From: Williamsia sp. 1135
Lineage (GTDB): Bacteria; Actinomycetota; Actinomycetes; Mycobacteriales; Mycobacteriaceae
NCBI RefSeq assembly: GCF_002095395.1
Contig: NZ_MJEI01000105.1
Location: forward strand, 124,001 to 188,000
Length of the DNA stretch: 64,000 bases
Direction of reading: 5' to 3'
A program made the translations under genes and the position numbers. Shown here in pieces: positions 970 to 62,406 of this stretch. Positions within the stretch are counted from its first letter, which is position 1; each line of letters opens with the position of its first letter. The notes beneath the pieces are model-generated. The model worked only from the letters and a program-made list of their open reading frames with translations, searched no databases and was not told where the DNA came from.

Positions 970-970
970 C

Positions 971-1459
971 TCAGGATTCCGCAGAGGGAGATTCCGGGCC
1001 GGGGCCGACGTTCCGGGATTCGCGGAGGCGAAGTTGGTGCACGTAGTCGTCCGGGGCTCCAGCGATTTCCGCTGCCTCGGCCATCACTCCGAGATACCGG
1101 GCCGAGGGCAGACCGCCCTCGAATGCGTCGAGCACGTACAGCCAGGCCAGGACCGGGCCGTTCGCGGTGTGGATGCGCGCACGGATCTTGCGGTGGATCT
1201 CGAGCTCGGATCCCTCCCAGCGGTCCAAGCTGCCCTCGTCGTCCTCGGTGACGTCGTAGAGCACCACGAAGACGCGGGCGTCGGGATCGTCTCGGTCTTC
1301 GGTGACCGTGGCAAGCGCACCTTCCCAGCCGATATCGCCGCCGCCGAAGGTCAGTCGCCATCCGTACAGCCACCCTGTTCCCGCCATCGGAGAGTGTGGA
1401 GCCCGCTCGAGCATCTGCTCGGGGTGCATGTTTGATCCGTACGCGGCATAAATCGGCAC
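971..1459 (-). CDS. Gamma-glutamylcyclotransferase-like protein (Rv3304-like)
   Basis: A 162-residue protein of the gamma-glutamylcyclotransferase fold. The family signature AAYGSNM lies at the N-terminus (residues 5-11) and an acidic segment with DRWEGSELE lies near the middle, where the catalytic Glu is expected. Known members turn gamma-glutamyl amines or amino acids into 5-oxoproline; the acceptor here is not known. The start is GTG at 1459. No Shine-Dalgarno sequence precedes it, but a TAGGCT hexamer lies at a distance that would fit a leaderless message. The stop lies one base from the stop of the convergent amidohydrolase. Confidence 0.75.
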   Translation of the reverse strand: MPIYAAYGSNMHPEQMLERAPHSPMAGTGWLYGWRLTFGGGDIGWEGALATVTEDRDDPDARVFVVLYDVTEDDEGSLDRWEGSELEIHRKIRARIHTANGPVLAWLYVLDAFEGGLPSARYLGVMAEAAEIAGAPDDYVHQLRLRESRNVGPGPESPSAES

Positions 1460-1587
1460 GGGAGGAGCCTAGATGGTCTGCTCCCCATCGGGAAAGTGGG
1501 AAGGGCGATCGACTAGATTCGACACGTGGCGACACCCCCGCCGACAGCCCATCAGGCCCATCCGACACCCCAGGGAGTTGACCTGAA

Positions 1588-3009
1588 ATGACAAAAATCG
1601 TGATCATCGGCGGAGGACCGGCCGGCTACGAAGCGGCCCTCGCCGCGGCCAGTTACGGCGCTGACATCACAGTGGTCGACAGCGACGGCATGGGCGGCGC
1701 CTGTGTGCTGTGGGACTGCGTCCCCTCGAAGACGTTCATCGCGTCGGCAGGGATCCGCACCGAGGTGCGCAGAGCTGTTGACCTGGGGATCAACCTGAAA
1801 TACGACGGCGCGCTGGTGTCGCTGCCGCAGATTCACGAACGCGTCCGGGACCTTGCTTTTGCGCAGTCCTCGGACATCCGGTCCAGGCTCCTCACCGAAG
1901 GCGTCCGGATCATTCACGGGCGCGGTCGGCTGACCGAACCCGAGGTCGGTTTCGCTGCCAGACACCGCGTGGTGGCCACCCCGTTCGAGCCGGACGGCAC
2001 CGATGGCCCGGAGGAGATTCTCGAGGCGGATGTGGCGTTGGTCGCCACCGGCGCGTCGCCGCGTGTCGTCCCCGGTGCCGAGCCGGACGGCGAGCGGATT
2101 CTGAACTGGCGTCAGATGTACGACCTGAGTGATTTCCCCGAGCATCTCGTCGTCGTCGGCTCCGGCGTGACGGGTGCCGAATTCGTGCACGCGTACACCG
2201 AGCTGGGTGTGCAGGTGACGATGGTGTCCAGTCGCGACCGGGTACTGCCCGGCGAAGACGAGGATGCGGCCTTGGTTCTCGAGGACGTGCTCGCCGAGCG
2301 TGGGGTCAAGCTCGTCAAACATGCCCGTGCCGACCGGGTCGAGCGGACCACCGACGGTGTGATCGTGCATCTTGCCGACGGGCGGACGGTCGAGGGCTCG
2401 CACTGTCTGATGACGGTCGGCTCTGTGCCGAACACCAATGGACTCGGCCTGGAAGCCGTGGGCATCGAATTGGCGCGCGGTGGATACCTGCAGGTGGACC
2501 GGGTGTCGCGGACATCGATCCCCGGGATCTACGCAGCCGGTGACTGCACGGGCTTGCTGCCGCTGGCGTCGGTTGCCGCGATGCAGGGACGTATCGCGAT
2601 GTACCACTCGCTCGGTGAGGGCGTGACCCCGATCAAGCTCAAGACAGTCGCGTCCGCGATCTTCACCCGGCCAGAGATCGCGACCGTCGGAGTGACCCAG
2701 GCGGCCATCGACTCCGGCGCGTATCCGGCGCGGACCGTGATGTTGCCGTTGGCGACCAACCCACGCGCCAAGATGAGTGGTCTGCGACGGGGATTCGTCA
2801 AGATCTTCTGCCGGCCTGCGACAGGTGTCGTCATCGGCGGAGTCGTGGTCGCGCCCAACGCGTCCGAACTGATTCTGCCCATCGCGTTGTCCGTGCAGAA
2901 CAAGCTGATGGTGAGCGACCTGGCGCAGACGTTCTCGGTGTACCCATCCCTGTCCGGATCGGTGACCGAGGCGGCCCGGCAACTGGTCCGGCACGACGAC
3001 CTGGACTGA
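1588..3009 (+). CDS. lpdA: NAD(P)H-quinone dehydrogenase, flavoprotein disulfide reductase family
   Basis: A 473-residue FAD enzyme of the pyridine nucleotide-disulfide reductase family, close in architecture to mycobacterial LpdA (Rv3303c), which reduces quinones rather than lipoamide. The FAD site IIGGGPAGYEA is at residues 6-17, the NAD(P) site VVGSGVTGAEF lies near residue 188, and the second FAD motif YAAGDCTG is in the C-terminal half. Two cysteines stand at the redox position (C39 and C44, CVLWDC then VPSK), but the C-terminal interface reads VYPSLSGSVTE and so lacks the His of the usual His-Glu pair. An AGGGAG ribosome site lies 10 bases before the ATG. The gene is followed by a nested palindrome. 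Confidence 0.88.
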   Translation: MTKIVIIGGGPAGYEAALAAASYGADITVVDSDGMGGACVLWDCVPSKTFIASAGIRTEVRRAVDLGINLKYDGALVSLPQIHERVRDLAFAQSSDIRSRLLTEGVRIIHGRGRLTEPEVGFAARHRVVATPFEPDGTDGPEEILEADVALVATGASPRVVPGAEPDGERILNWRQMYDLSDFPEHLVVVGSGVTGAEFVHAYTELGVQVTMVSSRDRVLPGEDEDAALVLEDVLAERGVKLVKHARADRVERTTDGVIVHLADGRTVEGSHCLMTVGSVPNTNGLGLEAVGIELARGGYLQVDRVSRTSIPGIYAAGDCTGLLPLASVAAMQGRIAMYHSLGEGVTPIKLKTVASAIFTRPEIATVGVTQAAIDSGAYPARTVMLPLATNPRAKMSGLRRGFVKIFCRPATGVVIGGVVVAPNASELILPIALSVQNKLMVSDLAQTFSVYPSLSGSVTEAARQLVRHDDLD

Positions 3010-3024
3010 CCTCGGGCCGACTAC

Positions 3025-3094
3025 AAATTCGCGCCACCTGCTGGCGTTCGCGCCGGGTGCAACCGGCGCGTACGCATGCAGGTGGCGCGAATTT
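3025..3094. repeat. Nested palindromic repeat, copy 1
   Basis: A 70-bp element with perfect 17-bp terminal arms (AAATTCGCGCCACCTGC at 3025-3041 and its reverse complement at 3078-3094). Inside is a second perfect hairpin, CGCGCCGG with GTGCAA loop and CCGGCGCG. It starts 15 bases after the lpdA stop. A diverged copy in the same orientation lies at 4448-4517, so the two copies flank the aminotransferase gene. It could work as a terminator hairpin or be a small dispersed repeat of the REP/MITE kind; the sequence does not decide. Confidence 0.85.
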
Positions 3095-3258
3095 CTCGGT
3101 CGGCTCTGTAGTCCCAACTAGTGGGATACCCATTTCATATTTCGAACAGCCGGGGTTAGCCTGCGTGTAGTAGCGGCGTACACCTGAGCCGTTGTTCGGT
3201 GACCACACTCATCACCTCCTGTCGTACATCTGTCGTCTTCTTCTGGAGTGTGGTTGTG

Positions 3259-4446
3259 ATGAAGCTCGATTCTGCATATGCGCCGTCTCACGCATTGACC
3301 AACGTCCGCGGCTCGGCCATCCGTGATCTGCTGAAACTGACCGAGCAGCCGGATGTCCTCAGTCTGGCCGGCGGTCTGCCTGCGACCGAACTGATTCCGG
3401 CGCAGCGGATCTCTGAGACCGCGGCGCGCGTGAGCGCCGATCCGGCTGCATTGCAGTACACGGTGAGCGCCGGCGTGCTGTCGTGTCGTGAGGTTGTGGC
3501 CGACTACGTCGGATCGTCAGATGTGGAGCGGGTGCTGCTGACGCATGGATCGCAGCAGGCGTTGTTCCTACTGGCGCACGCCCTGGTGAATCCTGGCGAC
3601 CTGGTTGTGGTCGATGACCCTGTGTACGTCGGCGCGTTGCAGGTCTTCCAGTCGGTGCGCGCTCGGATACGCGCATTACCGATCACCGCGCACGGTATCG
3701 ACGTCGAGTTGTTGCGCCAATGGCTCGAAGCCGGCGAACGGCCGCGGATCATCCATACGGTGAGCAACTTTCACAACCCAGCGGGTGTGTCGGCCTCCGG
3801 ACCGGCGCGAATCGAGTTGGCGCGTCTGGCGGATGAGTACGGCTTCCTGATCATCGAGGACGACCCGTACGGCCGACTCAGGTTCAGGGGCCAGGGCATT
3901 GAACCTATTGCTGCGCACAGTGATCGGGTGGTGTTGCTGGGTAGCGCCTCGAAGGTGTTGGCACCTGCGCTGCGGGTGGGATGGATGAGCGGCCCGCCCG
4001 ACGTGATCGGGTTGGTGGAACGCCTGCGGCAAGGTGCCGATCTGTGTGGCTCCACCTTCAGTCAGTTGGTTGTCGCGGAATTGCTGGGTGACCAGACGTG
4101 GTTCGCTGAACACGTCGGTGTCATTCGGCAGGAGTACGGTTCGCGGGCAGCGGCTTTGACGTCAGTGCTGCGAGGCACATTCGGCGAACGGGTGTCGTTC
4201 GCCGAGCCGGAAGGCGGGATGTTCTGTTGGGTGCGCATGCCTGGGGTCGACACGACTGAGTTGCTACCAAAGGCGGTCGATGCCGGAGTGGCTTACGTGC
4301 CCGGCGCTGCGTTTGGTGTGGAGGCTGATTTCGGCGACTGCCTACGGTTGAGCTTCGCAACGCTGACGCCGGAAGAGCTCGTCGAGGGTGTGCGTCGGCT
4401 GGCGGTCGCCGTCGCGGCTTCGAACCGAGAGGATTTGTCGCACTGA
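3259..4446 (+). CDS. PLP-dependent class I/II aminotransferase (LysN/2-aminoadipate type)
   Basis: Fold-type I aminotransferase of 395 residues, related to the catalytic half of MocR proteins and to LysN-type transaminases, but with no N-terminal helix-turn-helix. Visible sites are SLAGGLPATEL near the N-terminus, NFHNPAGVS (the NPxG cofactor loop), IIEDDPYGRLRF (the Asp that pairs with the pyridine nitrogen) and GSASKVLAPALRVGW, where the Lys would form the Schiff base. The amino donor is unknown. I chose ATG 3259, 11 bases after GGAG; an earlier in-frame start at 3199 would add an unconserved 20-residue leader. The stop lies one base before the second nested palindrome. A TCCCA-N5-TGGGA dyad at 3112-3126 may be an operator. 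Confidence 0.85.
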   Translation: MKLDSAYAPSHALTNVRGSAIRDLLKLTEQPDVLSLAGGLPATELIPAQRISETAARVSADPAALQYTVSAGVLSCREVVADYVGSSDVERVLLTHGSQQALFLLAHALVNPGDLVVVDDPVYVGALQVFQSVRARIRALPITAHGIDVELLRQWLEAGERPRIIHTVSNFHNPAGVSASGPARIELARLADEYGFLIIEDDPYGRLRFRGQGIEPIAAHSDRVVLLGSASKVLAPALRVGWMSGPPDVIGLVERLRQGADLCGSTFSQLVVAELLGDQTWFAEHVGVIRQEYGSRAAALTSVLRGTFGERVSFAEPEGGMFCWVRMPGVDTTELLPKAVDAGVAYVPGAAFGVEADFGDCLRLSFATLTPEELVEGVRRLAVAVAASNREDLSH

Positions 4447-26990: not shown

Positions 26991-29723
26991 TCACCGGTTG
27001 ATGGCGTGCCAGACCCTCGGTGGGTTCATCGGTAGCTCGTACACCCGTACGCCGATCGCGTTCCGGATGGCACTCTCGAGTGCAGGTGCTACCGGGTTGT
27101 AGGGTGACTCGCTCATCGACTTGGCACCCAGCGGTCCGATGGCATCGTAGGTGTCGGCAAAGTAGACCTCGGTGTCGGGGACGTCGGCGATCTGCGGGAT
27201 GTGGTAATTGCGCAGTACCTGGGTGATGACGTGCCCGTTCTCCAGGATCATCTCTTCGTAGAGAGAACTGCCGATCGCCTGTGCCGCACCGCCTTCGACC
27301 TGGCCGCGGCACTGTTGAGGATTCATCACCACTCCGGCGTCCGCGGACTGCAGCGAATGCAGGATCCGCACTTCGCCGGTAGAGGTGTTCACCCCCACCC
27401 GGAACGCGTGCACATTGAACGCGGTCGACCGCGGGCTGCCGTCGTGCTTGCCTTCCGACGCCACCGGTCCGCCGTATGCCGCGGCGATTCCGGCCAGGTC
27501 GATGAAGTCCGAACCGGCCTGAACGCCCTGTGGTCCCAGTACGCACGCCGCCGGGTCCGCGTCGAGGGCGCGGGCTGCGACCTCGATCATGCTGGTGCGC
27601 AATCGATCGCACGCACAACGTAGGGCTTTGCCCGCGACGACGGTGCCGGCAGATCCGAACGCGCCGGTGTCGTAGCCGATCTCGTCGGTGTCTGCCTGCC
27701 GAATCGTGATCTGGCCCGGGGGGCACCCCAGTGCGGAGGCGGCGATCTGGGTCAGCACGGTGGTGGTCCCGTTGCCGAACTCGGCGGTACCCACCGCGGC
27801 GACGTACTCTCCGTCGGTGGTCAGGGTCATCGCGGCCTCGGCGAAGTGTCCTCGCGGAGGGATGGTGGCGATCATCGCAGCCGCCATACCTTCCCCGATC
27901 TCCCAATCAGGCAGTTGCTGGAGTTCGACGCCTCCACGTACCGGGTCGGTTCTACCCGCGAGCAGCGCTTGCTGGGCGAGATCGATGCATTGGTCGAGCC
28001 CATAGCTGCCGAACTCGAGATCTCCCTCCTCGATCTCCCAGGACACGAAATCATCGCCGGGTACAACGACATTGATTCTGCGCATCTCGAACGGGTCGAT
28101 GCCCAGGCGCGCCGCCAGTTCATCGATCGCTCCCTCGATCCCGAAGGCCACCTGACCGAGTCCGTACCCACGGAAGGCGCCCGAGGGAATGTTGTTGGTG
28201 TACACCGCGCGTGCGTCGACATGTTTGTTCGGACTTCGATAGAGCGCAACGGATTCGCTACACCCGTGGAACATCACACCGCCGCTGTGGTTTCCGTAAG
28301 CCCCGGCATCGGAGAGCACCGACACCGACAGCGCCGTCAGCACGCCGTCCGCGCCCGCCGCGGCCGTGACGTCGACCCGCATCGGGTGACGACACGGTGC
28401 GATGGTGAACTGATCGGTCCTGGTGAACTCGTAGACCACCGGCCGGCCGGTCTTCAGCATCGCCAGCACGACCAGGTCTTCGGTGAGCAATTCCTGCTTT
28501 CCGCCGAATCCGCCGCCGACCCGTGCCGCGTACACCCGGACCTGATCTGGCGGCAGATCGAAGATGTGGCACAACTCGTCGCGGACGAGAAACGGCACCT
28601 GAGTGCTCGAGCGCACCACGATGCGACCCTTATCGTCGCGCCAGCCGACCGCGCCGTGGGTCTCGAGGTGCGTGTGCTGGACCCGTGCGGTCTGCCAGCT
28701 GCCGGAGACCACCGCACCGCCGGTGTCGCGCGCGAGCGCGACGCCGGCGTCGATGTCGCCCACCGTGCCGTCCAGTGCGGCGACCAGGTTTGTCCCGGGG
28801 TCGGCGATCCGTGCCTCGGGACCCTTGTCACCGTGTACGAGTGGTGTGCCCGGCTCGGTGGCAAGGGCGGGGTCGAAATTGGCCGGGAGCACCTCGTACT
28901 CGGTGGTGATCAGGGAACTCGCCCTGCGCGCGATGGTCATCGAGTCGGCGACCACTGCGGCGACCCGCTGACCCACGAAGCGCAGGGTGACATCGAAGAC
29001 CCGTCCGTCGTCCGGGTCGTCGAGTCGGTTGTCGTGGCGGGCGGTCGAGAAGAGCACGCCGGGATCGTCGCGATGGGTCAGCACCGCACGCACCCCCGGA
29101 ACCTGTTCCGCTGCAGTGGTGTCGATGGCGACGATGCGGGCGTGGGGGTGCGGGCTACCGATCACTGCGACGTGACCGAGATCCGTGGGCAGGCGATCCA
29201 TCGTGTACGGCTCTGTGCCGGTCACGATGCGCGGCGCGGCGGGTGCCTGGACGGACTTGCCCACCGACACACCGGGGTCACCCGGTGCAACCTTCTCCGT
29301 GCCCACCACTTCGTCGAGTGCATCCCGGATGGAGCGGTAACCGGTGCAGCGGCACAGGTTCCCCTTGAGACTGTTCGGCAGGTCTGAAAGCTGATCCTCA
29401 TCGAGGGCACTCGCGGTGACAACCATTCCGGCCGTGCAGAATCCGCATTGGAAGCCGGCAGCATCAACGAATCTCTGCTGCATCGGATGCAGGTTCTCCG
29501 GCGTCCCGAGGCCGGCCACAGTCGTGATATCGGCGTCCGCGACCCGGTGTGCGGGGACGATGCAGGAGTGTTGCGCCTTGCCATCGACGAGGACAGAACA
29601 GGCTCCGCAATCGCCCGCGTCGCAGCCCTTTTTGACATCGTCCTGGCCCTGTTCACGCAAGAACGTGCGTAGACATTGCCCGGGTGCCGGAACAGCGTCG
29701 ACGAACTGACCGTTGATCTTCAT
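26991..29723 (-). CDS. Xanthine dehydrogenase family protein, fused 2Fe-2S and molybdenum subunits
   Basis: A 910-residue molybdenum hydroxylase in which the small FeS subunit is fused to the Mo-binding subunit. All eight cluster cysteines are present: C34, C39, C42, C54 (plant-type 2Fe-2S) and C93, C96, C124, C126 (helical 2Fe-2S). The Mo part shows ARVGGGFGGKQE, AFRGYGLGQ and, near the C-terminus, GAKSMSESPYNPVAPAL, where the Glu corresponds to the catalytic one. Electrons would go to the FAD subunit encoded just upstream. ATG 29723 (MKING) is preferred because GAAGGGCGG precedes it; ATG 29744 adds seven residues. With 8-oxoguanine deaminase in the operon the likely substrate is a purine. 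Confidence 0.9.
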   Translation of the reverse strand: MKINGQFVDAVPAPGQCLRTFLREQGQDDVKKGCDAGDCGACSVLVDGKAQHSCIVPAHRVADADITTVAGLGTPENLHPMQQRFVDAAGFQCGFCTAGMVVTASALDEDQLSDLPNSLKGNLCRCTGYRSIRDALDEVVGTEKVAPGDPGVSVGKSVQAPAAPRIVTGTEPYTMDRLPTDLGHVAVIGSPHPHARIVAIDTTAAEQVPGVRAVLTHRDDPGVLFSTARHDNRLDDPDDGRVFDVTLRFVGQRVAAVVADSMTIARRASSLITTEYEVLPANFDPALATEPGTPLVHGDKGPEARIADPGTNLVAALDGTVGDIDAGVALARDTGGAVVSGSWQTARVQHTHLETHGAVGWRDDKGRIVVRSSTQVPFLVRDELCHIFDLPPDQVRVYAARVGGGFGGKQELLTEDLVVLAMLKTGRPVVYEFTRTDQFTIAPCRHPMRVDVTAAAGADGVLTALSVSVLSDAGAYGNHSGGVMFHGCSESVALYRSPNKHVDARAVYTNNIPSGAFRGYGLGQVAFGIEGAIDELAARLGIDPFEMRRINVVVPGDDFVSWEIEEGDLEFGSYGLDQCIDLAQQALLAGRTDPVRGGVELQQLPDWEIGEGMAAAMIATIPPRGHFAEAAMTLTTDGEYVAAVGTAEFGNGTTTVLTQIAASALGCPPGQITIRQADTDEIGYDTGAFGSAGTVVAGKALRCACDRLRTSMIEVAARALDADPAACVLGPQGVQAGSDFIDLAGIAAAYGGPVASEGKHDGSPRSTAFNVHAFRVGVNTSTGEVRILHSLQSADAGVVMNPQQCRGQVEGGAAQAIGSSLYEEMILENGHVITQVLRNYHIPQIADVPDTEVYFADTYDAIGPLGAKSMSESPYNPVAPALESAIRNAIGVRVYELPMNPPRVWHAINR

Positions 29724-51823: not shown

Positions 51824-53035
51824 ATGACAACTGCAGACGCACCCGCCGGACCGTTGACCGACCTCAGGGTCGTCGAGATGGGTCAGCTGTTGGCCGGGCC
51901 GTTTTGTGGTCAGCTGCTGGCCGACTTCGGTGCGGAGGTGATCAAACTCGAATCACCGGGGGTGGGCGACCCGATGAGACAGTGGGGCCGCGAGAAGGCA
52001 CACGGCAAGTCGCTGTGGTGGCCGGTCGTCGCCCGCGGCAAGAAGTCGGTCACCTGCAACCTCCGAAGTCCCGAAGGCCAGGATCTGGCCCGTCGGATCA
52101 TTGCCGAGGCCGACGTGGTCGTCGAGAACTTCCGGCCGGGGACACTCGAACGATGGGGCCTCGGTGTCGAAGAACTGCACGAGATCAATCCGGGGCTGAT
52201 CGTCGCCAGGGTCAGCGGTTATGGCCAGAGTGGTCCGTATTCCGCCCGGGCCGGGTTCGGTTCGATCGGCGAGGCGATGGGTGGGATCCGTTATGTGACG
52301 GGCGATCCGACGAACGCACCGTCCCGCGCCGGGATCTCACTCGGTGATTCCCTGGCAGCGGTCTTCGCGACGATCGGTGTCCTGGCCGCCCTTCACCATC
52401 GAGAGAAGACAGGTGTCGGGCAGGTCGTCGACTCGGCCATCTACGAGGCCGTGCTCGCCATGATGGAGTCGCTTCTGCCCGAATGGGCCATCGGCGGCTA
52501 TCAGCGCGAGCGGACGGGTTCGGTCCTGCCGAACATCGCACCGAGCAACGTCTATCCGACCAAGGAGGACAGCATGATCCTGGTCGCGGCCAACCAGGAC
52601 AGCGTGTTCGGGCGTTTGGCGACCGCCATGGACCGGACCGATCTGATCGACGACCCGCGGTACCGTGACCACGCCTCCCGCGGGGTCAACATGGACGAAT
52701 TGGACGAGTTGATCGCGTCCTGGACCGCCGAGCGCGGCACCGACGAACTGCTGGAGTTGCTCCACGAGGCGGGGGTCCCGGCCGGCCGGATCTACACCGC
52801 GAGCGACATGTTCGCCGATCCGCACTTCGCGGCGCGTGAGGCGATCGTGAAGCTGGCCCACCCGGACTTCGGGGAGTTCCCCATGCACGGGGTGTTCCCG
52901 AAGCTGAGCAAGACCCCCGGCGCCGTCAGGCACGCCGGCCCCGCACTCGGTGAGCACAACGCTGACATCTACGGCGCGCTGCTCGGACTCACCGACTCCG
53001 ACCAGGCCGCGCTCGCCGGGCGCGGCACTATCTGA
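51824..53035 (+). CDS. CaiB/BaiF class III CoA-transferase
   Basis: A 403-residue family III CoA-transferase. It starts LTDLRVVEMGQLLAGPFCGQLLADFGAEVIKLE, a textbook N-terminus, and the Asp that forms the acyl anhydride is likely in RAGISLGDSLAAVFA. Such enzymes move CoA between two carboxylic acids. AGGAG lies 8 bases before ATG 51824. With the adjacent lyase it could activate and split a 3-hydroxy-3-methyl dicarboxylic acid such as HMG; some members of this family are known to use HMG and glutarate. Whether it belongs with hyuAB downstream is unclear. Confidence 0.9.
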   Translation: MTTADAPAGPLTDLRVVEMGQLLAGPFCGQLLADFGAEVIKLESPGVGDPMRQWGREKAHGKSLWWPVVARGKKSVTCNLRSPEGQDLARRIIAEADVVVENFRPGTLERWGLGVEELHEINPGLIVARVSGYGQSGPYSARAGFGSIGEAMGGIRYVTGDPTNAPSRAGISLGDSLAAVFATIGVLAALHHREKTGVGQVVDSAIYEAVLAMMESLLPEWAIGGYQRERTGSVLPNIAPSNVYPTKEDSMILVAANQDSVFGRLATAMDRTDLIDDPRYRDHASRGVNMDELDELIASWTAERGTDELLELLHEAGVPAGRIYTASDMFADPHFAAREAIVKLAHPDFGEFPMHGVFPKLSKTPGAVRHAGPALGEHNADIYGALLGLTDSDQAALAGRGTI

Positions 53036-53046
53036 CACCAGCCCTT

Positions 53047-53086
53047 CACACCCCAACCATCATTGGCCACACCCAACCATCACTGG
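53047..53086 (+). repeat. Short tandem repeat between the CoA-transferase gene and hyuA
   Basis: CACACCCCAACCATCATTGG (53047-53066) is repeated as CACACCCAACCATCACTGG (53068-53086), one base shorter and with one change. The second copy runs into the hyuA ribosome site. It looks like a local duplication in the leader. Confidence 0.7.
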
Positions 53087-53094
53087 AGATCCGC

Positions 53095-55149
53095 ATGCGA
53101 TATCGGCTCGGAGTTGACGTCGGCGGCACATTCACCGATGTGCTGCTGCTCGACGAGACCTCCGGAACCACGTTCCGGGCCAAGACCCCCTCGACCCCTG
53201 CCGATCAGTCGATCGGCGTGATGAACGGCGTCACCAAGGTGTGCGCCGAAGCGGCTATCGACTTTTCTGAAGTCGGGCAGGTACTCCACGGCACCACGGT
53301 CGCCACCAACGCGATCCTGCAGCACAAGGGCGCCAAGGTAGGGCTGGTGACCACCGACGGATTCCGGCAGGTGCTGCAGATCGCCAGGTCATTCGTGCCG
53401 GGCGGTCTGGCCGGCTGGATCATCTGGCCCAAACCTGAACCATTGGCCAAGCTCGAGGACACGGTCGAGGTGGTCGGCCGACTCGCCGCCGACGGATCGG
53501 AGGTGACGGCGCTCGACGAGGGTCAGGCCCGTGCGGCACTGAGCTCACTGTCGGGGGCGGGGATCGAGGCGCTCACGATCTCGTTGATCAACTCGTACGC
53601 CAACGATGCTCACGAGAAGCAGGTCGCGGCGTGGGCCGCCGAAGAGTTGCCCGGCATCCCGGTGTCGATCTCCAGCCACGTGCTGCCCGAGATGCGCGAA
53701 TACGAGCGCACCCTGACCACTGTCGCGAACAGCTACGTACAGCCAGAGGTGTCGCGATACGTCCGCAACCTCGACGCAACCCTGCGCGACAAGGGGATCG
53801 AGGCCCCGCTGTCGATCCTGCGCAGCGACGGTGGGCTCGTGCAGTCGGCCAAGGCCGCGGAGGATCCCGTCTCCCTGCTGCTCTCGGGGCCTGCGGGCGG
53901 CGTGACAGGCGCTGTCTGGTTCGCCGAGCAGGCAGGATTCACCGATTTCCTGACCTTCGACATGGGTGGCACCTCCACCGATGTGGCACTCGTGCTCAAA
54001 GGGGAGCCCCGCATCGGCCGAGAGACCAAGGTCGGTGATCTCGCGGTGAGGGCCACCAGCGTGGACGTCCGCACCGTGGGAGCCGGCGGGGGCTCGATCG
54101 CCCATGTCCCCGAGCTGACCAAGGCCCTGAGGGTGGGTCCGCAGTCCGCTGGTGCCGATCCCGGACCTGCGGCCTACGGCAGCGGTGGCACGGAACCGAC
54201 CGTCACCGACGCCAACGTCGTATTGGGTTATCTGCCCAGCGGATTGGCCGGCGGTGAGGTATCCCTCGACGTCGACGCCGCGCGCACTGCGGTCGCAGGC
54301 GTCGCCGACGCGATGGGGCTGGAGAGTCCCGAGGTCGCCGCGGCGGGCATCGTCGATATCGTCAACGAGAACATGTTCGGTGCGCTGCGATTGGTCAGTG
54401 TCCAGCAGGGTTTCGACCCCAGGGACTTCGCGCTGGTGTCGTTCGGTGGCGCCGGCCCGCTACACGTCAATGCGCTGGGCAGGCTCACCGGATCGTGGCC
54501 GGTCATCGTGCCACCCTCGCCGGGGGTGCTGTGCGCCTACGGTGACGCCACGACCTGTCTGCGCGACGAGAGTGCCCGCACGCTGATCCGCGCCTTCTCC
54601 GAGACCACCGACGACGAATTGCGTTCGGCGCTGGCGGAGTTGGCCGAGTCCGCCGCCGCCAGGCTTGCGGCCGAAGGGGTGCCCGCCGACCAGCAGACCG
54701 CCAAGTATCAGGTGGATCTGCGCTACCACGGCCAGGGATTCGAGATTCCCGTCGATCTGGACCCGGAGGTACTGGCAGGGGGCGAGGTCCTCGCCGGCCT
54801 CGGTGAGGCCTTCGACGCCGAGCACCAGCGGCTGTTCTCGTTCCTGCTGAAGAATGAGCGTGAGGTGATCAATCTGCGCGTCACGGTGAGTGGTCCGCGA
54901 CCCGAGGTGGCGTGGAAAGCGTTGCCGGAAGGCGACGCCGACGCGTCCGCTGCGCTCGCCCGGACGAGTGAGGTCTGGATGGACGGCGCGCATGTCTCCG
55001 CCGGGATCTATGACCGTTCGAAGCTCCTGGCAGGCAACGTGGTCACCGGACCTGCCGTGATCACCGAGATGGACTCGACGACCCTGGTCCTGCCCGGGCA
55101 CGCCGCCACCGTCCACACCAGCGCAAGCCTGCTGATCCGCCCGGTCTGA
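53095..55149 (+). CDS. hyuA: Hydantoinase/oxoprolinase subunit A
   Basis: A 684-residue protein of the hydantoinase A / 5-oxoprolinase family. The N-terminal actin-like ATP site is LGVDVGGTFTDVLLLD, and the second phosphate motif is FDMGGTSTDVALV near residue 290, followed by GAGGGSIAHV. With HyuB it forms an ATP-dependent amidohydrolase for a cyclic amide such as N-methylhydantoin, hydantoin or 5-oxoproline. GGAG precedes ATG 53095. The hyuB gene follows 63 bases downstream and an N-carbamoylsarcosine-amidase-like gene after that, which favours N-methylhydantoin. Confidence 0.93.
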   Translation: MRYRLGVDVGGTFTDVLLLDETSGTTFRAKTPSTPADQSIGVMNGVTKVCAEAAIDFSEVGQVLHGTTVATNAILQHKGAKVGLVTTDGFRQVLQIARSFVPGGLAGWIIWPKPEPLAKLEDTVEVVGRLAADGSEVTALDEGQARAALSSLSGAGIEALTISLINSYANDAHEKQVAAWAAEELPGIPVSISSHVLPEMREYERTLTTVANSYVQPEVSRYVRNLDATLRDKGIEAPLSILRSDGGLVQSAKAAEDPVSLLLSGPAGGVTGAVWFAEQAGFTDFLTFDMGGTSTDVALVLKGEPRIGRETKVGDLAVRATSVDVRTVGAGGGSIAHVPELTKALRVGPQSAGADPGPAAYGSGGTEPTVTDANVVLGYLPSGLAGGEVSLDVDAARTAVAGVADAMGLESPEVAAAGIVDIVNENMFGALRLVSVQQGFDPRDFALVSFGGAGPLHVNALGRLTGSWPVIVPPSPGVLCAYGDATTCLRDESARTLIRAFSETTDDELRSALAELAESAAARLAAEGVPADQQTAKYQVDLRYHGQGFEIPVDLDPEVLAGGEVLAGLGEAFDAEHQRLFSFLLKNEREVINLRVTVSGPRPEVAWKALPEGDADASAALARTSEVWMDGAHVSAGIYDRSKLLAGNVVTGPAVITEMDSTTLVLPGHAATVHTSASLLIRPV

Positions 55150-55212
55150 TCTGACGCAGGCCCGATTCAACCCCCGAACTGATCGAGATACACCACCTTC
55201 GTAGGAGATCTG

Positions 55213-57102
55213 ATGGCCACCATCATCGAAACCAGCACCACCGGAGTGAACAAGGTGCCGGTTGATCCGGTCACCCTCGACATCATCGAGAACGCATTAC
55301 GCAACGCCCGGTACGAGATGGACGAGGTGCTGTTCCGAACGGCGCTGTCTCCGGGCATCCGGGAGCAGCACGACGAGTTCCCGTTGATCGCCGATCCGAG
55401 CGGGAAAATGGTCGTGGGTCAGTTCGGGCTCTCCGTCCCCGACTTTCTCGACAACTTCAACGGCACTGTCGGCGAAGGTGACATCCTGCTGACCTCTGAT
55501 CCCTACGCCTGCGGCGCCGCGATCAGCCATGCCAACGACTGGCTCATCGTGCTTCCCATCTTCCACAGCGGGCGGGTGGTCGGGTGGTCGTCGATGTTCG
55601 GACACATGTCGGACGTCGGCGGCAGCACCCCGTCGTCGATGCCCGCCGACGCCCACACGATCTACGAAGAGGGCGTGATCATCCCGCCGTTCAAGCTCTA
55701 CGACAAGGGCGAACTCAACGACACCGCGCTCGACATCATCCTGAACCAGGTGCGGATGCCCGACTGGAACCGCGCCGACCTCAACGGCCTGGTCGCAGCG
55801 TGCACCACCGCCTCCCGGCGGATCGTCGAATTGTGCGATCGTTTCGGTGTCGATGTCTATCTGTCCGCGCTCGACGCGTTGCTCGACAGGAACTACCAGG
55901 CCATGAAGGTGCTTCTCGCGACGCTGTTCGTCGACGGCGAGACCATTGAGTTCAGTGACTACATCTGCGACGACGGATGTGGTTACGGCCCCTACAAGCT
56001 GACGATCAAATTGACCCGGCACGGCGAGAAGATCCATCTCGACTTCAGTGCCGACGCGGCGCAGGCGGTCGGGCCGATCAACTACTTCATCAACGAGAAT
56101 CTCGTACGGATGTTCTTCGGCATCTACGTGATCACCATCGCTGATCCCCAGATCCTCTGGAACGACGGCTTTTATCCGCTCATCGACGTGACCATTCCCG
56201 AGGACTCGTTCTGGAAACCGCGATTCCCGGCCGCGCTCAACGGTCGCAACCACGGAATCGGCCGGGTCTTCGACCTGTTCGGCGGACTGCTGGGCCAGGG
56301 AAACCCGGAGATCCTCAATGCCGCGGGGTTCTCGTCGTCGCCACACTTCATGTATTCCGGTCACTACGACGGCGGTTCGCGGGATGGCGAATGGTTCCAG
56401 CTCTACTCCATCGGTTTCGGAGGGATTCCGGGCCGCCCGATCGGAGACGGACCGGATGGCCACTCGCTGTGGCCCTCGTTCGTGAACATCCCGTGCGAGT
56501 ACCTCGAGTCGTATTACCCCCTGCGGGTCGAGCGCTGGGAGACGATCGCCGACACCGGCGGCGCCGGATTGCATCGTGGTGGCAACGGTGTCGACGTCGC
56601 GTATTACTTCGAGGAGCCGGGAACCATTGCGATACACGACGATCGCTGGCTCACCTATCCGTGGGGCGTCAACGGGGGCAAACCCGGTGCGCGCGGGGCG
56701 AAATGGATCAAACGTGTCTCCGGTGAGACCGAGGTGCTGCCGAGCAAGATCCACGATGTCGAGGTCGCGCGCGGCGACGTACTGCACTTCATCACCTGGG
56801 GCGGTGGTGGCTGGGGTGATCCGCTCGACCGGGATCCCGAGATCGTGGCTCTCGAGGTGCGGCGCGGTCTGGTCAGTGTCGAGGGGGCGGCCGAGGGCTA
56901 CGGCGTCGTGTGCACCGCGCAGGGAGATGTCGATGGCGCGGCGACCGAGGCCCGCCGGGAGGCCATTCGCTCCGAGCGCGGTGAACTCCAGACCTTCGAC
57001 ATGGGCCCGTCGATCCCCGAGATCCTCGAGCGGTGTGAGGCCGAGACCGGATTGCCGGCCCCGAGGCCACCGGTGAACGTGCGGAAGGCGGTGCGGGCGT
57101 GA
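55213..57102 (+). CDS. hyuB: Hydantoinase/oxoprolinase subunit B
   Basis: A 629-residue HyuB partner that carries the hydrolysing site. It starts with VDPVTLDIIENALRNARYEMDEVLFRTALSPGIREQHDEF, followed by GDILLTSDPYACGAAISHANDW, a conserved metal-binding block, and ends with WGGGGWGDPLDRDPE, the signature of the family's C-terminus. AGGAG lies 5 bases before the ATG. The stop overlaps the start of the next gene (GTGA), so the amidase is translated with it. Confidence 0.93.
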   Translation: MATIIETSTTGVNKVPVDPVTLDIIENALRNARYEMDEVLFRTALSPGIREQHDEFPLIADPSGKMVVGQFGLSVPDFLDNFNGTVGEGDILLTSDPYACGAAISHANDWLIVLPIFHSGRVVGWSSMFGHMSDVGGSTPSSMPADAHTIYEEGVIIPPFKLYDKGELNDTALDIILNQVRMPDWNRADLNGLVAACTTASRRIVELCDRFGVDVYLSALDALLDRNYQAMKVLLATLFVDGETIEFSDYICDDGCGYGPYKLTIKLTRHGEKIHLDFSADAAQAVGPINYFINENLVRMFFGIYVITIADPQILWNDGFYPLIDVTIPEDSFWKPRFPAALNGRNHGIGRVFDLFGGLLGQGNPEILNAAGFSSSPHFMYSGHYDGGSRDGEWFQLYSIGFGGIPGRPIGDGPDGHSLWPSFVNIPCEYLESYYPLRVERWETIADTGGAGLHRGGNGVDVAYYFEEPGTIAIHDDRWLTYPWGVNGGKPGARGAKWIKRVSGETEVLPSKIHDVEVARGDVLHFITWGGGGWGDPLDRDPEIVALEVRRGLVSVEGAAEGYGVVCTAQGDVDGAATEARREAIRSERGELQTFDMGPSIPEILERCEAETGLPAPRPPVNVRKAVRA

Positions 57103-57722
57103 GCGATACGCTCTCGTCGTACCTGGAGTCGGGCTTCGCAGGAAGCCTCGGGCCGGGCCGGAGCCCGGCGGTGTTGGCCATCGATCTGGCGATGGCCTAT
57201 CTGGCCGACTCCTCGCCGTTGCGGGCGCCGGTCGCCGATGCTGTCGCGGCGTCGGCGGCACTGGTGGGTGCGGCCCGCGCGGCGGGGATTCCGGTGATCT
57301 TCACCCGCGTCAGCTATCAGCGCGGTGGGATCGACGGTGGTCTGTTCGTGCGGAAGATACCGGCTCTCAAGGTGTTCGAGGAGGGCTCGCCGCTCGCGGA
57401 CTTCGTGCCCGATCCTCGTCCCGAGCCGGGAGAGACGGTGGTCACGAAGCAGTATGCCAGCGCCTTTTTCGGGACCTCGCTGGCCGCCACCCTCACCGCG
57501 CGCGGCATCGACACGCTCTACATCTGTGGACTGAGCACCAGCGGCTGCATCCGGGCCAGCGCGACGGACGCCCTGCAACACGGTTTTCGCCCGTTGGTGG
57601 TCTCGGATGCCTGCGGCGATCGCGAACAATCGTTGCACGAGGCGAATCTGCTCGACCTACAGGCGAAGTACGCCGATGTGCTCACCCTCGCCGACGCACT
57701 GACCCAGCTGAATCCCCGATAA
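57099..57722 (+). CDS. N-carbamoylsarcosine amidase-like cysteine hydrolase
   Basis: A 207-residue cysteine hydrolase of the isochorismatase-like superfamily. The triad is visible: Asp in LAIDLAMAYL, Lys in VTKQYASAFFGT and Cys in GLSTSGCIRASATDALQHGF. The STSGCIRASATDA stretch is characteristic of N-carbamoylsarcosine amidase, which releases ammonia and CO2 to give sarcosine. Overlap with hyuB by GTGA supports a two-step route: N-methylhydantoin to N-carbamoylsarcosine to sarcosine, the lower part of creatinine breakdown. No creatinine deaminase is next to it. The gene ends inside palindrome copy B. Confidence 0.88.
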   Translation: MSDTLSSYLESGFAGSLGPGRSPAVLAIDLAMAYLADSSPLRAPVADAVAASAALVGAARAAGIPVIFTRVSYQRGGIDGGLFVRKIPALKVFEEGSPLADFVPDPRPEPGETVVTKQYASAFFGTSLAATLTARGIDTLYICGLSTSGCIRASATDALQHGFRPLVVSDACGDREQSLHEANLLDLQAKYADVLTLADALTQLNPR

Positions 57723-57787: not shown

Positions 57788-58696
57788 CTAACCGAGCCAG
57801 GCCATCTGCTGCGTCCATGACGGACCGGCGTCGGGAGCATCGTCTCGGGTGACGGTGGCCTGGATCAAACCGTAGGGACGGTCGTCGGCGTTGAACACCT
57901 CTTTGTTGTTCTCCACGCCGAAGGGGGAGAGGTCGTAGACGAAGTGGTGGATGTTCGGAGCGGACAACTTGACCTCGGCGATGTGGTCGTAGGTCTCCAG
58001 GATGGTCTTGCCCATCTGATACAGCGTCTGCTGCAACGCCAATGACTGGACCGTCGCGAACGTCTCGACGATGATCTGCTTGATGGCGGGATAAACCGCT
58101 TCCCAATCGACGTCGGTGGTGGTGAAGCGCCACTTCGCGACCAGGGATGTCGACATCACCCGGTCGGTGGTCGGTTGCAGGATGGTGTACTCGTCTTCGA
58201 GGAAGTCATGGAATTCCGATCCCGTCGACTTCAGCACAACCAGATCCTTCAGACCTCCGATGACCCAGGTGTTTTGGGCATCACCCTTGCCTTCGACGGT
58301 GATGTCGGCGGTGCGGATCTCCTGGCCTTTGCGAACCCAGGTGTGGTCGTGTTCCTTGCCGTCGATGACCGCGCGTTCCCAGGCGTACTCCTCGATCTCG
58401 ATACGTGCCCCGTCGACGGGGTCGTTGTCATCGACGAAATGGTGGGCGAGGTCGAGCCCGTACTGCTCGATGCTCGAGATACCCTTTTCCTTGGCGTAGG
58501 CGTACGCGGTCTGCTTCTGGGTGTCGGTCGGCAGCACCTTACGCTGGTCGCCATCGGTGTGAGCGGCCGAGAAGTCACCGCGCAGCGCACTACCGACGTT
58601 GATGTCCTTGATCTCGTGTCGCGGGGTGTCGCGATAGATCCGGACCACGCGGTTCTCCGCTTTGCCGTACTGGTTCTCGCCCAGGATGATGCCCAT
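57788..58696 (-). CDS. pucL: Factor-independent urate hydroxylase (uricase)
   Basis: A 302-residue uricase converting urate, O2 and water to 5-hydroxyisourate and peroxide without a cofactor. The two T-fold halves are present. GKAENRVVRIYRD carries the catalytic Lys region, VLPTDTQKQTAYAYAKEKG the Thr of the relay, and IHHFVYDLSPFGVENNKEVF a conserved C-terminal block. No peroxisome-like or secretion tail is seen. ATG 58696 is set by homology; the frame is open upstream into the hydroxyisourate hydrolase gene region. It is the last gene of the minus-strand urate operon. Confidence 0.96.
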   Translation of the reverse strand: MGIILGENQYGKAENRVVRIYRDTPRHEIKDINVGSALRGDFSAAHTDGDQRKVLPTDTQKQTAYAYAKEKGISSIEQYGLDLAHHFVDDNDPVDGARIEIEEYAWERAVIDGKEHDHTWVRKGQEIRTADITVEGKGDAQNTWVIGGLKDLVVLKSTGSEFHDFLEDEYTILQPTTDRVMSTSLVAKWRFTTTDVDWEAVYPAIKQIIVETFATVQSLALQQTLYQMGKTILETYDHIAEVKLSAPNIHHFVYDLSPFGVENNKEVFNADDRPYGLIQATVTRDDAPDAGPSWTQQMAWLG

Positions 58697-58722: not shown

Positions 58723-59049
58723 TCAGCTGCCGCGATAGGTGGAGTATGCAAAGGGGCTGAGCAGCAGCGGTACATGATGATGCCGTGTGGTGTCCACGAC
58801 GGCGAACGCGATGGTCACCTCTGGGTAGAAGTTCTCGATCTCCCTCGCGCTGAACCATGAACCGGTGTCGAACGTGAGGCGATAGGTGCCTTCGCCGAGG
58901 TCGCCGCCGGTCACCGAAGCGATGCGGCCGTCGGAATCGGTGATCGCCGAGGCCAATTCGACTCCGGCGTCGTCATGTAATGAGACCGTCAACCCGGGCG
59001 CGGGAAGTCCGGTGACGGCATCGAGGACGTGGGTGCTCAATCCGGTCAC
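58723..59049 (-). CDS. uraH: 5-hydroxyisourate hydrolase
   Basis: A 108-residue transthyretin-like protein that hydrolyses 5-hydroxyisourate to OHCU. It starts LSTHVLDAVTGLPAPG with the catalytic His and ends with the family signature YSTYRGS. RHHHVPLLLSPFAYSTYRGS completes the active-site set. The start overlaps the stop of the OHCU decarboxylase gene (ATGA), so the two enzymes that follow uricase are made together. Confidence 0.95.
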   Translation of the reverse strand: MTGLSTHVLDAVTGLPAPGLTVSLHDDAGVELASAITDSDGRIASVTGGDLGEGTYRLTFDTGSWFSAREIENFYPEVTIAFAVVDTTRHHHVPLLLSPFAYSTYRGS

Positions 59050-59585
59050 GGGTGAGCACCTTCCTCCTCGTCGACGTAGTGGACGGCCGGCTCGAGCATC
59101 ACTCGCAACCGCCGACGGTTGATCTTCCCCAGTTCCATTCGCATGACCCGTCGTTCGGTCTGCGGGTCATTGCCCATCCGTTCCTTGAGAATGGCCAGCA
59201 ACTCCGCTGCCGGCCTGCCGTTGGCGAACACCAGATAGACGTGACCGAACTTGCTCTCGTACTCGGCGTTGCACTTCTTGAGCTCGTCGATGATCGCGGC
59301 ATCGGCACCGGCGACCCCTGATTGCTCGCTGGCCGACGACGGGTTGTCGGCGCGGTCGCCGATGCGTGGGTGCCCGTCGAGGGCCTCGTCGAGATCGGAT
59401 TCGGTGAGCTCGGCCAAGATCAGATCCGCACGCTCGAACAGTGCTTCGTCGTCGGTGAACGGACGCCCCGCCGCAACCCGGATCGCCCAGATCCGGGAGG
59501 TGCAGCACTCGTAGAGGGCGTGGATGGCTTGGCGGTCGCTCAGTTCGTTGAAGCTCTCGACACCGCGCCAGTCGACTCGTCGCAC
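59046..59585 (-). CDS. uraD: 2-oxo-4-hydroxy-4-carboxy-5-ureidoimidazoline (OHCU) decarboxylase
   Basis: A 179-residue enzyme that decarboxylates OHCU to (S)-allantoin. The catalytic His is kept in LDGHPRIGDRA and the family Glu in SASEQSGVAGAD; the C-terminal helix block KINRRRLRVML is normal. GTG 59585 is chosen because AGGAG lies 5 bases before it. A TTG at 59609 overlaps the stop of the permease gene (TTGA) and is an alternative that would add eight residues. Contrast with the fused, altered OHCU-like domain in the upstream permease. Confidence 0.92.
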   Translation of the reverse strand: MRRVDWRGVESFNELSDRQAIHALYECCTSRIWAIRVAAGRPFTDDEALFERADLILAELTESDLDEALDGHPRIGDRADNPSSASEQSGVAGADAAIIDELKKCNAEYESKFGHVYLVFANGRPAAELLAILKERMGNDPQTERRVMRMELGKINRRRLRVMLEPAVHYVDEEEGAHP

Positions 59586-59605
59586 GGATTCTCCTGCCTT
59601 TCGTA

Positions 59606-61606
59606 TCAACCCATTACGTCTTGGAAACGGTTGAACCGCGCCGAGACTATGGGATTGGCGTCCGCCACGAGATCGTCGAACCGGTAGTTGGCGATCTTCG
59701 CTATCTCGATCAGCGCAAACGACTTCTCGCTGCCTGCTGCATTGTCCATGCGAGTCCAGCCATTTCGGAGTACGCGCTCGTATCGCTCGGTCTCTCTGGC
59801 GCAGATCACCAGCGGGAAACCGAACTGCTGACGATAGGCTTTTGCCATCTCGACGATGTTATCGTGCTCTTCCTCTTCGAGATTGGACAACGCGGTGTGA
59901 TCTGAGGCGATCATGTCGCCGACCTCGTCTTCGGCGTCGAGATCCGGGAACGCCCTGATCAGTTCGAGCTGTTGCTCGTCGCTACCTGTGAGCAGCGCGT
60001 CCTGGAAGGAAGCCCGCAGGTCATGCGCGTTCTCGAACGGTCGTTGCTCGTACGCGGCGTCGACAACCCACGTCACGTTCTGCACGAGGCCGCCGAAGGT
60101 CTCTCGGAACTTCTCCAGCGACATCTTGTTGATCTCGGCAAGCCGGATCGAACCGCCTCCCGCGATCGCCACGCCACGACTGCCGGTGTGGAAGAACAGC
60201 AGATTCAGCAGTAGAGCGGTGATGGCGCCCATCGTGATTCCGGCGCCGAACGGGATCTGCAGCAGCACACCGGGCACGGCCTGGTCGACACCGGACATAC
60301 CCGGTACCTCGACCACGTTGCCGTCGACGATGACCTCCGACGGCGTCGAGGACTGGCTGAACTCCACGTACAGACCCATGGCGAGTGACGTGCTGACGAT
60401 GATCAGGTTCCGGTGGTCGGCGAAGTCGACTTTCCCGAGGGTGTGAATGCCGACCACGGCGACCGTGGCGAACAGGGTCATGGCGGCACCGCCGAGCACC
60501 GGGGCCGGGATGGCTTCGACGATCTTGGCGGTCTTGGGCAGCAGGCCCAGCAGGATCATGATGCCGCCGGCCGCGGCGACCACCCAGCGACTCTTGACTC
60601 CGGTGAGACGGACAAGCCCCACGTTTTCGGAGAACGCGGTGTAGGGGAACGAGTTGAAGATGCCGCCGATCACGGTGGCCAGGCCGTCCGCGCGCACGGT
60701 GGCCGCGATGTCTTCCTTTTTGATGCGTTTGCCGACGATCTCACCGGTTGCGAACACCGACCCGGTGGATTCCACGGCGATGATCATCATGACCACGATC
60801 ATCATCACGATGGCGATGAGATCGAAGCGTGGTGCACCGAACGCGAAGGGCGGGGTGAATCCGACCCAGTCGGCCTCGCCGACAGCGCTGAAGTTCGTGT
60901 CGCCGAGGATCCAGGCGACGATGGTCCCGACCACCAGGCCGAGCAGCACCGCGATGGTCGCCCAGAAGCCACGGAAGAAGCGCTGCATGAGAACGATCAG
61001 GAAGATGGTGCCCACCGCGTACAGCAGCCAGCGGCCGTTGCCGGCGTCCGAGGTGTGGGTGGCGGGATCGGTGGTTGCGTCACCGATGCCGACAGGCAGC
61101 AGCGCGATACCGATGATGGTGATGATGGTTCCGGTCACGACAGGAGGGAAGAACCGGATCAGTTTGGCGAAGAACGGCGCGATCAGGAAGGTGAAGATGC
61201 CCGCGCAGATGACGGCCCCGTAGACGGTCAGCAGCCCGACGCGTTCTCCGCCGTTGTCGTTGGCGATCTTGATGACCGGCGCGAGTGCGGCGAACGTGAT
61301 GCCCTGTAGCAGCGGGAGCCGGACACCGATCTTCCAGATGCCGACCGCCTGCAGGATGGAAGCGATACCACAGGTGAAGAGGTCGGCGGTGATGAGCATC
61401 GTGAGTGCGTCGCCGTCGAGGCCGATGGCACCGGCGATGATGAGCGGGACCAGCACTGCGCCCGCGTAGAACGCGATGACGTGCTGGAAGCCCAGAACCG
61501 CGAGTTTGCCGACCGGCGGGACCTCGTCGACAGGATGAACCCGCTTCTTCCGCATAGGCAGAACGGGGGGAGTGGCTGTGGAGTCGGCCTCGGGTTCGCT
61601 GCTCAT
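59606..61606 (-). CDS. NCS2 purine permease fused to a degenerate OHCU-decarboxylase domain
   Basis: A 666-residue fusion. Residues 35-475 form a nucleobase-cation symporter-2 (xanthine/urate permease) with about 12-14 helices; AVESTGSVFATGEIVGKRI and the segment GIFNSFPYTAFSENVGLVRLTGVKSR are the family signature region. Residues 486-666 align with OHCU decarboxylase: EQRPFENAHDL, LIRAFPDLD, AYRQQFGFPLVICARE and the last helix. The catalytic His of HPDL is Phe553 here and the STxEQ Glu region is shortened, so the domain is probably not active. It would bring urate or xanthine in and could tether or sense the pathway. The gene leads the urate operon. Confidence 0.92.
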   Translation of the reverse strand: MSSEPEADSTATPPVLPMRKKRVHPVDEVPPVGKLAVLGFQHVIAFYAGAVLVPLIIAGAIGLDGDALTMLITADLFTCGIASILQAVGIWKIGVRLPLLQGITFAALAPVIKIANDNGGERVGLLTVYGAVICAGIFTFLIAPFFAKLIRFFPPVVTGTIITIIGIALLPVGIGDATTDPATHTSDAGNGRWLLYAVGTIFLIVLMQRFFRGFWATIAVLLGLVVGTIVAWILGDTNFSAVGEADWVGFTPPFAFGAPRFDLIAIVMMIVVMMIIAVESTGSVFATGEIVGKRIKKEDIAATVRADGLATVIGGIFNSFPYTAFSENVGLVRLTGVKSRWVVAAAGGIMILLGLLPKTAKIVEAIPAPVLGGAAMTLFATVAVVGIHTLGKVDFADHRNLIIVSTSLAMGLYVEFSQSSTPSEVIVDGNVVEVPGMSGVDQAVPGVLLQIPFGAGITMGAITALLLNLLFFHTGSRGVAIAGGGSIRLAEINKMSLEKFRETFGGLVQNVTWVVDAAYEQRPFENAHDLRASFQDALLTGSDEQQLELIRAFPDLDAEDEVGDMIASDHTALSNLEEEEHDNIVEMAKAYRQQFGFPLVICARETERYERVLRNGWTRMDNAAGSEKSFALIEIAKIANYRFDDLVADANPIVSARFNRFQDVMG

Positions 61607-61809: not shown

Positions 61810-62406
61810 GTGAAGGGTTCGCCCGAGGAAGGTGTCTCGCTCGACGGCGCTCCGACGGTCGTGGGGGTGCTGCTCGCCGCGGGTGGGGGAACCAGGTATG
61901 GAATGCCGAAGATCCTTGCAGAACAAGGTGATTGGCTGCGACTGTGCGTTGCTGCACTGTTGGCAGGAGGCTGCTGCAAGGTGTTCGTCACGGTGGGTGC
62001 GGCAGCGGTGGCGATGCCTCAGGGGGCCGAGGCGGTGCAGGTACCGACGTGGCGTGAAGGACTGAGTGAGTCGGTGCGCGCGGGGCTTGTTCGCGCCCGC
62101 GGCCGCCAGGGTGTGGTCGGGGTTGTTTTACACGTTGTTGACATTCCGGATGTCTCGGCACCTCAGGTCGAGAGACTGCTCGCCGCGGCAGGCCCTTCGC
62201 CCCGGGCACTGGCCCGCGCGACCCACTTCGGGCAAATCGGCCATCCGGCATACATCGGTGCCGATCACCTTGGCGCCGTACTCGATTCACTGAGCGGTGA
62301 TCGCGGCGCGGGGCCCTTCTTCGCCGGCCGGGGCGACGTCATCGACGTCGAGTGCGGCGACCTCGGCACCGGCCTCGATCACGACCATCCGAGGCCCCGT
62401 CCCTAA
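61810..62406 (+). CDS. MocA/MobA-like molybdenum cofactor nucleotidyltransferase
   Basis: A 198-residue nucleotidyltransferase. The NTP-binding start VVGVLLAAGGGTRYGMPKIL fits the MobA/MocA group, and LHVVDIPDVSAPQVERLL holds the metal-binding Asp region. MocA adds CMP to molybdopterin to make the cofactor used by xanthine-dehydrogenase-type enzymes, such as the one at 26991-29723. GTG 61810 is preferred, with GGGAGG upstream; the frame is open to 61750. The gene is divergent from the urate operon. Its TAA stop overlaps the stop of the convergent small gene. Confidence 0.82.
   Translation: MKGSPEEGVSLDGAPTVVGVLLAAGGGTRYGMPKILAEQGDWLRLCVAALLAGGCCKVFVTVGAAAVAMPQGAEAVQVPTWREGLSESVRAGLVRARGRQGVVGVVLHVVDIPDVSAPQVERLLAAAGPSPRALARATHFGQIGHPAYIGADHLGAVLDSLSGDRGAGPFFAGRGDVIDVECGDLGTGLDHDHPRPRP

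Follow-up and report, generated by a model that had tools for sequence, protein, structure and literature searches.

The locus described here raises the question of what a purine permease does with a copy of a catabolic enzyme at its C-terminal end once that copy has lost its catalytic residues. In Williamsia sp. 1135, the gene at 59606-61606 on the minus strand of the window (the whole stretch of 64,000 nucleotides that was analysed) encodes a 666-amino acid protein formed by an NCS2 xanthine/urate permease and a C-terminal OHCU_decarbox domain; a Pfam search at E<=1 found Xan_ur_permease and OHCU_decarbox and nothing else. The NCS2/SLC23 xanthine-urate permease part (residues 1-484; 60155..61606, minus strand) passed the subfamily test, with 476.3 bits for TIGR03173 (cut-off 414.15), and also matches TIGR00801 (344.6 bits, cut-off 291.8) and PF00860. 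Its whole membrane part is similar to permeases of the UraA, UapA and PbuX/PucJ type (NCS2/NAT, SLC23), and the AF2 model of the full-length protein matches UraA and UapA. Moreover, Gln41-His42, Glu279, Asn328 and Gly330, which we take to be positions with known roles in NCS2 permeases, are invariant across 75 aligned fusions. Judging from the family and the gene neighbours, urate or xanthine is the putative cargo.

Regarding the C-terminal domain (residues 493-643; 59678..60130, minus strand; PF09349, 107.4 bits), it is homologous to OHCU decarboxylase along its whole length and retains the same fold in the model, so that the earlier note's own doubt, that the domain might not model onto this fold, can be put aside. 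Nevertheless, it falls below the OHCU-decarboxylase equivalog cut-off (TIGR03164, 88.4 versus 96.25 bits). In the sequence alignment, Phe553 (59948..59950, minus strand) takes the place of the catalytic His (zebrafish 67) and Asp569-His570 (59897..59902, minus strand) that of the catalytic Glu-Gln (zebrafish 87-88), the SxxEQ region reading S-Asp569-His570; the alignment beside the gap at Glu87-Gln88 was bridged by SxxDQ forms. Both the full-length domain with Phe553 for the catalytic His and the altered STxEQ segment, as first reported for this gene, are thus borne out. In OHCU decarboxylase, His67 and Glu87-Gln88 are known as catalytic residues and Arg161 as an active-site residue. Among the columns chosen as site residues (67, 84, 87, 88, 108 and 161), the sole one kept in the window's domain is Arg642 (zebrafish 161; 59681..59683, minus strand), while Arg619 and Glu627 (zebrafish 138 and 146), taken as structural, are kept too. 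The domain is followed by a C-terminal tail peculiar to the fused family (59609..59677, minus strand), modelled with low confidence, in which Ala648, Ala650 and Pro652 are each present in 92% of 118 fusions.

A complete decarboxylase with HPRIGD is encoded just downstream, as had also been noticed before: free UraD (59046..59609, minus strand) carries HPRIGD...SASEQ and scores 213.4 bits for PRK13798 (cut-off 124) and 154.3 bits for TIGR03180 (cut-off 139.4), its start likely being the GTG at 59585, behind an AGGAG-type site read by eye. Next on the same strand come a 5-hydroxyisourate (HIU) hydrolase (58723..59049; TIGR02962, 120.5 bits, cut-off 87.45) and a uricase (57788..58690; TIGR03383, 351.9 bits, cut-off 168.4), the order on the minus strand being fused permease, UraD, HIU hydrolase and uricase. 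By its predicted products, the locus combines an importer with the three enzymes leading from urate to allantoin. The fused domain is 100% identical to one on a contig of W. limnetica DSM 45521. The genome from which the window comes holds a second NCS2 permease, 49% identical to the fused one and about 24 kb away from it, outside the window (G000:C35:209596-210945), at which no OHCU-domain match was found. Elsewhere in the window there are a MoCoBD_2 molybdo-dehydrogenase match (27177-27905) and a divergent MobA-like NTP transferase (61810-62403), whose matches to molybdenum-cofactor cytidylyltransferase models are below cut-off, suggesting that purine oxidation genes may be nearby. On the plus strand beside the urate genes (51824-57722), an isochorismatase-family gene is accompanied by genes that, by eye, look like those for CoA transferase and hydantoinase A/B; the group may belong to a hydantoin or ureide pathway.

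In order to see how general the replacement of the His is, a census was made of the window plus 230 fetched loci. Domain matches occur in 72 of the 301 genomes of the window's family, in 29 of the 119 genomes of another family of the same class, in 30 of the 396 genomes of the phylum, in 23 of the 39 genomes of a Rubrobacter-like family of the phylum (a likeness judged by the permease-uraD gene order given in PMC4016543) and in 51 of the 240 genomes of the class of Bosea, besides 57 loci from a domain search of the GTDB contig collection. Every matching genome of the first two families and all 57 collection loci entered the census, each of the 30 matching genomes of the phylum set being represented by its best locus at least and the class of Bosea by loci from 30 of its 51 matching genomes. 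The family-genome and GTDB-contig sets overlap, identical sequences being counted once, and three partial hits were left out (L114|2229-2558, L118|72-3497 and L119|3233-3496). The fusion is not universal among relatives, as five of the nine searched genomes of the window's genus match. Among 201 family genomes, all 40 permeases that are 55-100% identical to the window's carry the fused domain; the search at E<=1e-100 gave 15 further permeases, none of them more than 51% identical.

In the 129 distinct domains sharing one open frame with a permease, the His67 column holds Tyr in 65, Phe in 64 and His in none. The His is kept in 155 of the 158 distinct domains not joined in frame to a permease, and the remaining three are truncated or incomplete copies: L226, with Tyr at this column, where a contig end cuts the frame; L230, lacking the middle of the domain and any permease match in frame, two pieces of it matching the window's domain at 57% and 47% identity; and L082, with Phe, counted as not fused. 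In the latter, a Mycobacterium MAG contig (420-1067), the first residues of the permease join straight to the domain and the membrane part is absent, which may reflect either a genuine deletion or a faulty assembly. Three apparent fusions with a His (HPEL; L128, L129 and L131) were rejected, since the domain there is encoded by a gene of its own, in a different frame from the permease. At column 87, the fusions hold Asp (118), Glu (8) or Ala (3), and at column 88 His (85), Gln (26), Arg (16), Ser (1) or Thr (1), states that move slightly with the alignment in single rows (e.g., L105). Ser84 is retained in 35 of the 129 and Asn108 in 10; Arg138 is kept in all of them, and Arg161 in all of them as well as in the 158 other domains. 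Thus, the case that would make this a one-off change, related fusions keeping both His and Glu, is contradicted for the His in every fusion, with Glu left in eight. As to whether Phe is conserved throughout, the position is strictly aromatic but shared almost equally between Phe and Tyr.

The origin of the altered site was approached through a tree of the domain (133 rows, with columns 67, 87 and 88 removed, leaving out L082 and rows more than 78% identical to a kept row; short search, SH-aLRT, no bootstrap). All 44 fused representatives fall into one clade (SH-aLRT 100) that arises within the free enzymes of the HPDLAG type, closest to the f18 sequences; the nodes immediately outside it have SH-aLRT values of 82-92. 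Convergent loss after several fusions is therefore unsupported. Inside the fused clade there are 14.55 substitutions per column, yet column 67 shows only three changes, all between Phe and Tyr. Read at columns 67/84/87/88/108/161, nearly all free enzymes are HSEQNR. The f18 fusions (n = 7) are YSEQNR (1), YSERNR (3) or YSDRNR (3), those of f20 (n = 2) YSDQNR, and those of f6 (n = 27) YSDQTR (17), YSEQTR (3), YSDRTR (3), YSDQDR (2), YSDQNR (1) or YADTSR (1). Fusions of the window's family are mostly (Phe/Tyr)-x-Asp-His-Ala-Arg, and those of genus g3 (n = 7) YIDRSR (4), YTARSR (2) or YLERSR (1). Since the His replacement is common to all fusions, the change from His to Tyr was probably first, and the intermediates suggest a stepwise rewriting from there. 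The order after this step was not strict, as the three f6 fusions with YSEQTR keep Glu-Gln together with Tyr67 and Thr108.

In the proposed course of events, a single in-frame fusion early in Actinomycetota would have placed a uraD copy at the C-terminus of an NCS2/SLC23 purine permease, probably starting from a permease-uraD gene pair. A side-by-side arrangement is a plausible starting point: in several f18 loci, the permease and a free uraD adjoin in different frames, and in Rubrobacter xylanophilus the permease Rxyl_2840 adjoins the OHCU decarboxylase Rxyl_2841, according to PMC4016543. With a separate catalytic uraD retained or acquired, the fused copy could have lost catalysis, presumably His67 to Tyr and then Glu-Gln, Ser84 and Asn108. 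In three f18 genomes (L145, L146 and L147), the fused permease is followed about 2 kb on by a separate uraD, which is preceded by a second, unfused permease; the domain hits there are split in two, suggesting that the site loop carries an insertion. The fusion of the alphaproteobacterium Bosea caraganae (L087 / L155) is placed inside the actinobacterial clade and is the only one among the 30 loci fetched from the 51 matching genomes (240 in the class), suggesting acquisition by horizontal transfer.

Pairwise NG86 was applied to 24 hand-picked pairs. The fused domain has a median dN/dS of 0.063 (24 values), compared with 0.051 in the permease (23 values) and 0.084 in the free enzyme (20 values), so it is under strong purifying selection. 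Together with the census, this agrees with the view of the earlier note that the permease retains a copy deprived of its catalytic residues. The persistence of the fusion without the pathway was assessed in 69 fusion genomes, hand-picked from about 109 and including all seven matching g3 genomes. Nine of these (G148, G188, G198, G207, G232, G260, G267, G927 and G1036), all at least 96% complete, have no second OHCU match, and neither Pfam uricase nor HIU hydrolase was found in any of them; the molybdo-dehydrogenase domain MoCoBD_2 is absent in eight. Among the scanned neighbour genes of three g3 loci, no purine-catabolism families were found. The domain gave dN/dS values of 0.024, 0.092 and 0.049 in three pairs from the pathway-less genomes. 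As the fusion is kept and selected there, a general dependence of the domain on OHCU, allantoin or the soluble enzymes is unlikely. Eleven more fusion genomes (G007, G037, G038, G053, G090, G104, G113, G191, G214, G219 and G231) have HIU hydrolase as well as another OHCU match besides the fused one, but no Pfam uricase; uricase-less fusion genomes may have a different urate-oxidising enzyme or a substrate other than urate. In Gordonia hankookensis (L045, 6550-7412), the permease fusion, a second OHCU match and HIU hydrolase are present.

The presence of the altered domain on all relatives examined, even those without the pathway, indicates that it probably controls the importer rather than performing catalysis. 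On balance, it is probable that the fused domain is a pseudoenzyme module acting on the transporter itself, as a cytosolic control or stabilising part intrinsic to it, and as such it would have stayed under strong selection. Between the point where the last membrane helix ends and the first invariant Asn of the domain, the linker has 18-26 residues (18-22 in 69 of 75). For the action on the transporter and for the binding of a purine or related anion by an aromatic-lined pocket with the kept Arg, we infer the steps from these patterns, the retention of the pocket itself being a reading of alignment and model. More tentatively, and only as a possibility, the former pocket may bind a cytosolic purine, either the cargo or a relative, and gate the SLC23 transporter, which would be a second invention of the role that STAS has for SLC26, outliving the pathway in small-genome Corynebacterium-like relatives. 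For genomes without the pathway, the simplest ligand that remains sensible would be a purine, and a zebrafish OHCU-decarboxylase structure entry presumably contains guanine. The kept Arg and the strictly aromatic column 67 would favour ligand sensing, but most fusions no longer have Ser84 and Asn108, which probably belong to the pocket, so that ligand binding may be lost. In consequence, the sensor idea put forward earlier survives in part: OHCU or allantoin as a general ligand is unlikely, given the nine genomes devoid of the pathway, and another ligand such as a purine is possible.

Among the other explanations, it is rather unlikely that the domain is only an aid for folding, stability or dimerisation with no ligand. 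This explanation would fit the fact that most of the conserved polar residues of the site have gone, whereas the hydrophobic positions, Arg138 and the fold remain; however, an exclusively aromatic column 67 and an invariant Arg161 across a deep clade are more constraint than a plain spacer needs. It overlaps with the control module, and the likelihoods given to the different explanations are not meant to add up to certainty. That the domain is still an enzyme, its site rebuilt on Tyr/Phe67, Asp87 and a new His88 for the same or another reaction, is improbable. The frequency of Asp87 and His88 and the slow evolution of the domain are in its favour, but 44 of the 129 fusions lack His88, which also leaves unsupported the idea of a relocated catalytic His compensating for His67; Ser84 and Asn108 are replaced as well in most, and the fusions with Tyr67 and an intact Glu-Gln suggest that the loss of the His preceded any rebuild.

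Less probable still is that the domain gathers uricase, HIU hydrolase and UraD around the pore so as to channel the imported urate, the docking role offered earlier as an alternative. A free copy follows the fused gene directly, on the same strand and within 1.2 kb, in 118 of 150 fusion loci (a redundant set), which would also suit a pathway-linked role in general. In addition, nitrogen limitation raises the expression of msmeg_1293-1296 of M. smegmatis together by 3.5-4.0-fold (PMC4617892); these genes encode a permease with or without the domain, OHCU decarboxylase, transthyretin and uricase. However, the nine pathway-less genomes have none of the three enzymes, and the free partners come from two subfamilies separated by a deep split (HPRIG type in f1, f6 and f20; HPDLAG type in f18), making docking unlikely as a general role. 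Lastly, the view that the change is a one-off mutation, a frameshift or a pseudogene in decay, for which a single damaged relative could be cited, has practically no probability left and is refuted by the replacement in 129 of 129 distinct fusions and a median dN/dS of about 0.06. In that relative (G046/L114, 2229-2558), the fused gene seems damaged, with a partial domain and an in-frame stop codon.

Compared to known systems, the fused domain shares with OHCU decarboxylase (UraD; PF09349, TIGR03164; zebrafish 2o70) the fold, the full domain length, Arg138, Arg161 and the FGFP motif, and differs from it by Phe/Tyr in place of the His, by the replacement of Glu-Gln in most cases and of Ser84 and Asn108 usually, and by being joined to a transporter. 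Fusion of a uraD domain to another purine-catabolism protein is likewise found in Arabidopsis TTL and Bacillus PucL. In PucL the fused decarboxylase is, we presume, active. It is also active in TTL, unlike the permease-fused domain, as reported in PMC2834698. With respect to the NCS2/SLC23 permeases, the distinction is the C-terminal cytosolic globular domain. SLC26/SulP transporters with STAS have a related membrane fold and, as in the fused protein, a globular domain directly behind the last membrane helix; the likeness is of position only, as the domain has the OHCU-decarboxylase fold and not that of STAS, and no STAS domain was found in the fused protein with Pfam at E<=1. In PMC6497670, SLC4 and SLC23 are said to lack carboxy-terminal domains, and the transport of SLC26Dg is described as compromised by deletion of STAS. 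Among the literature matches listed, which cover few subscription journals, no description of the fused, catalytically altered domain was found.

For genome annotation, nine genomes match PF09349 via the fused copy only, thus bearing the risk of a false decarboxylase: automated annotation may call these genes bifunctional permease/decarboxylases, crediting the activity to genomes without one. For the family, the fusion offers a clear case of a metabolic enzyme turned into a probably non-catalytic part of a transporter, with the intermediate states preserved in living genomes. As SLC23 proteins have been described without C-terminal domains, the clade would also be a natural test of whether an added soluble domain can control an elevator-type transporter.
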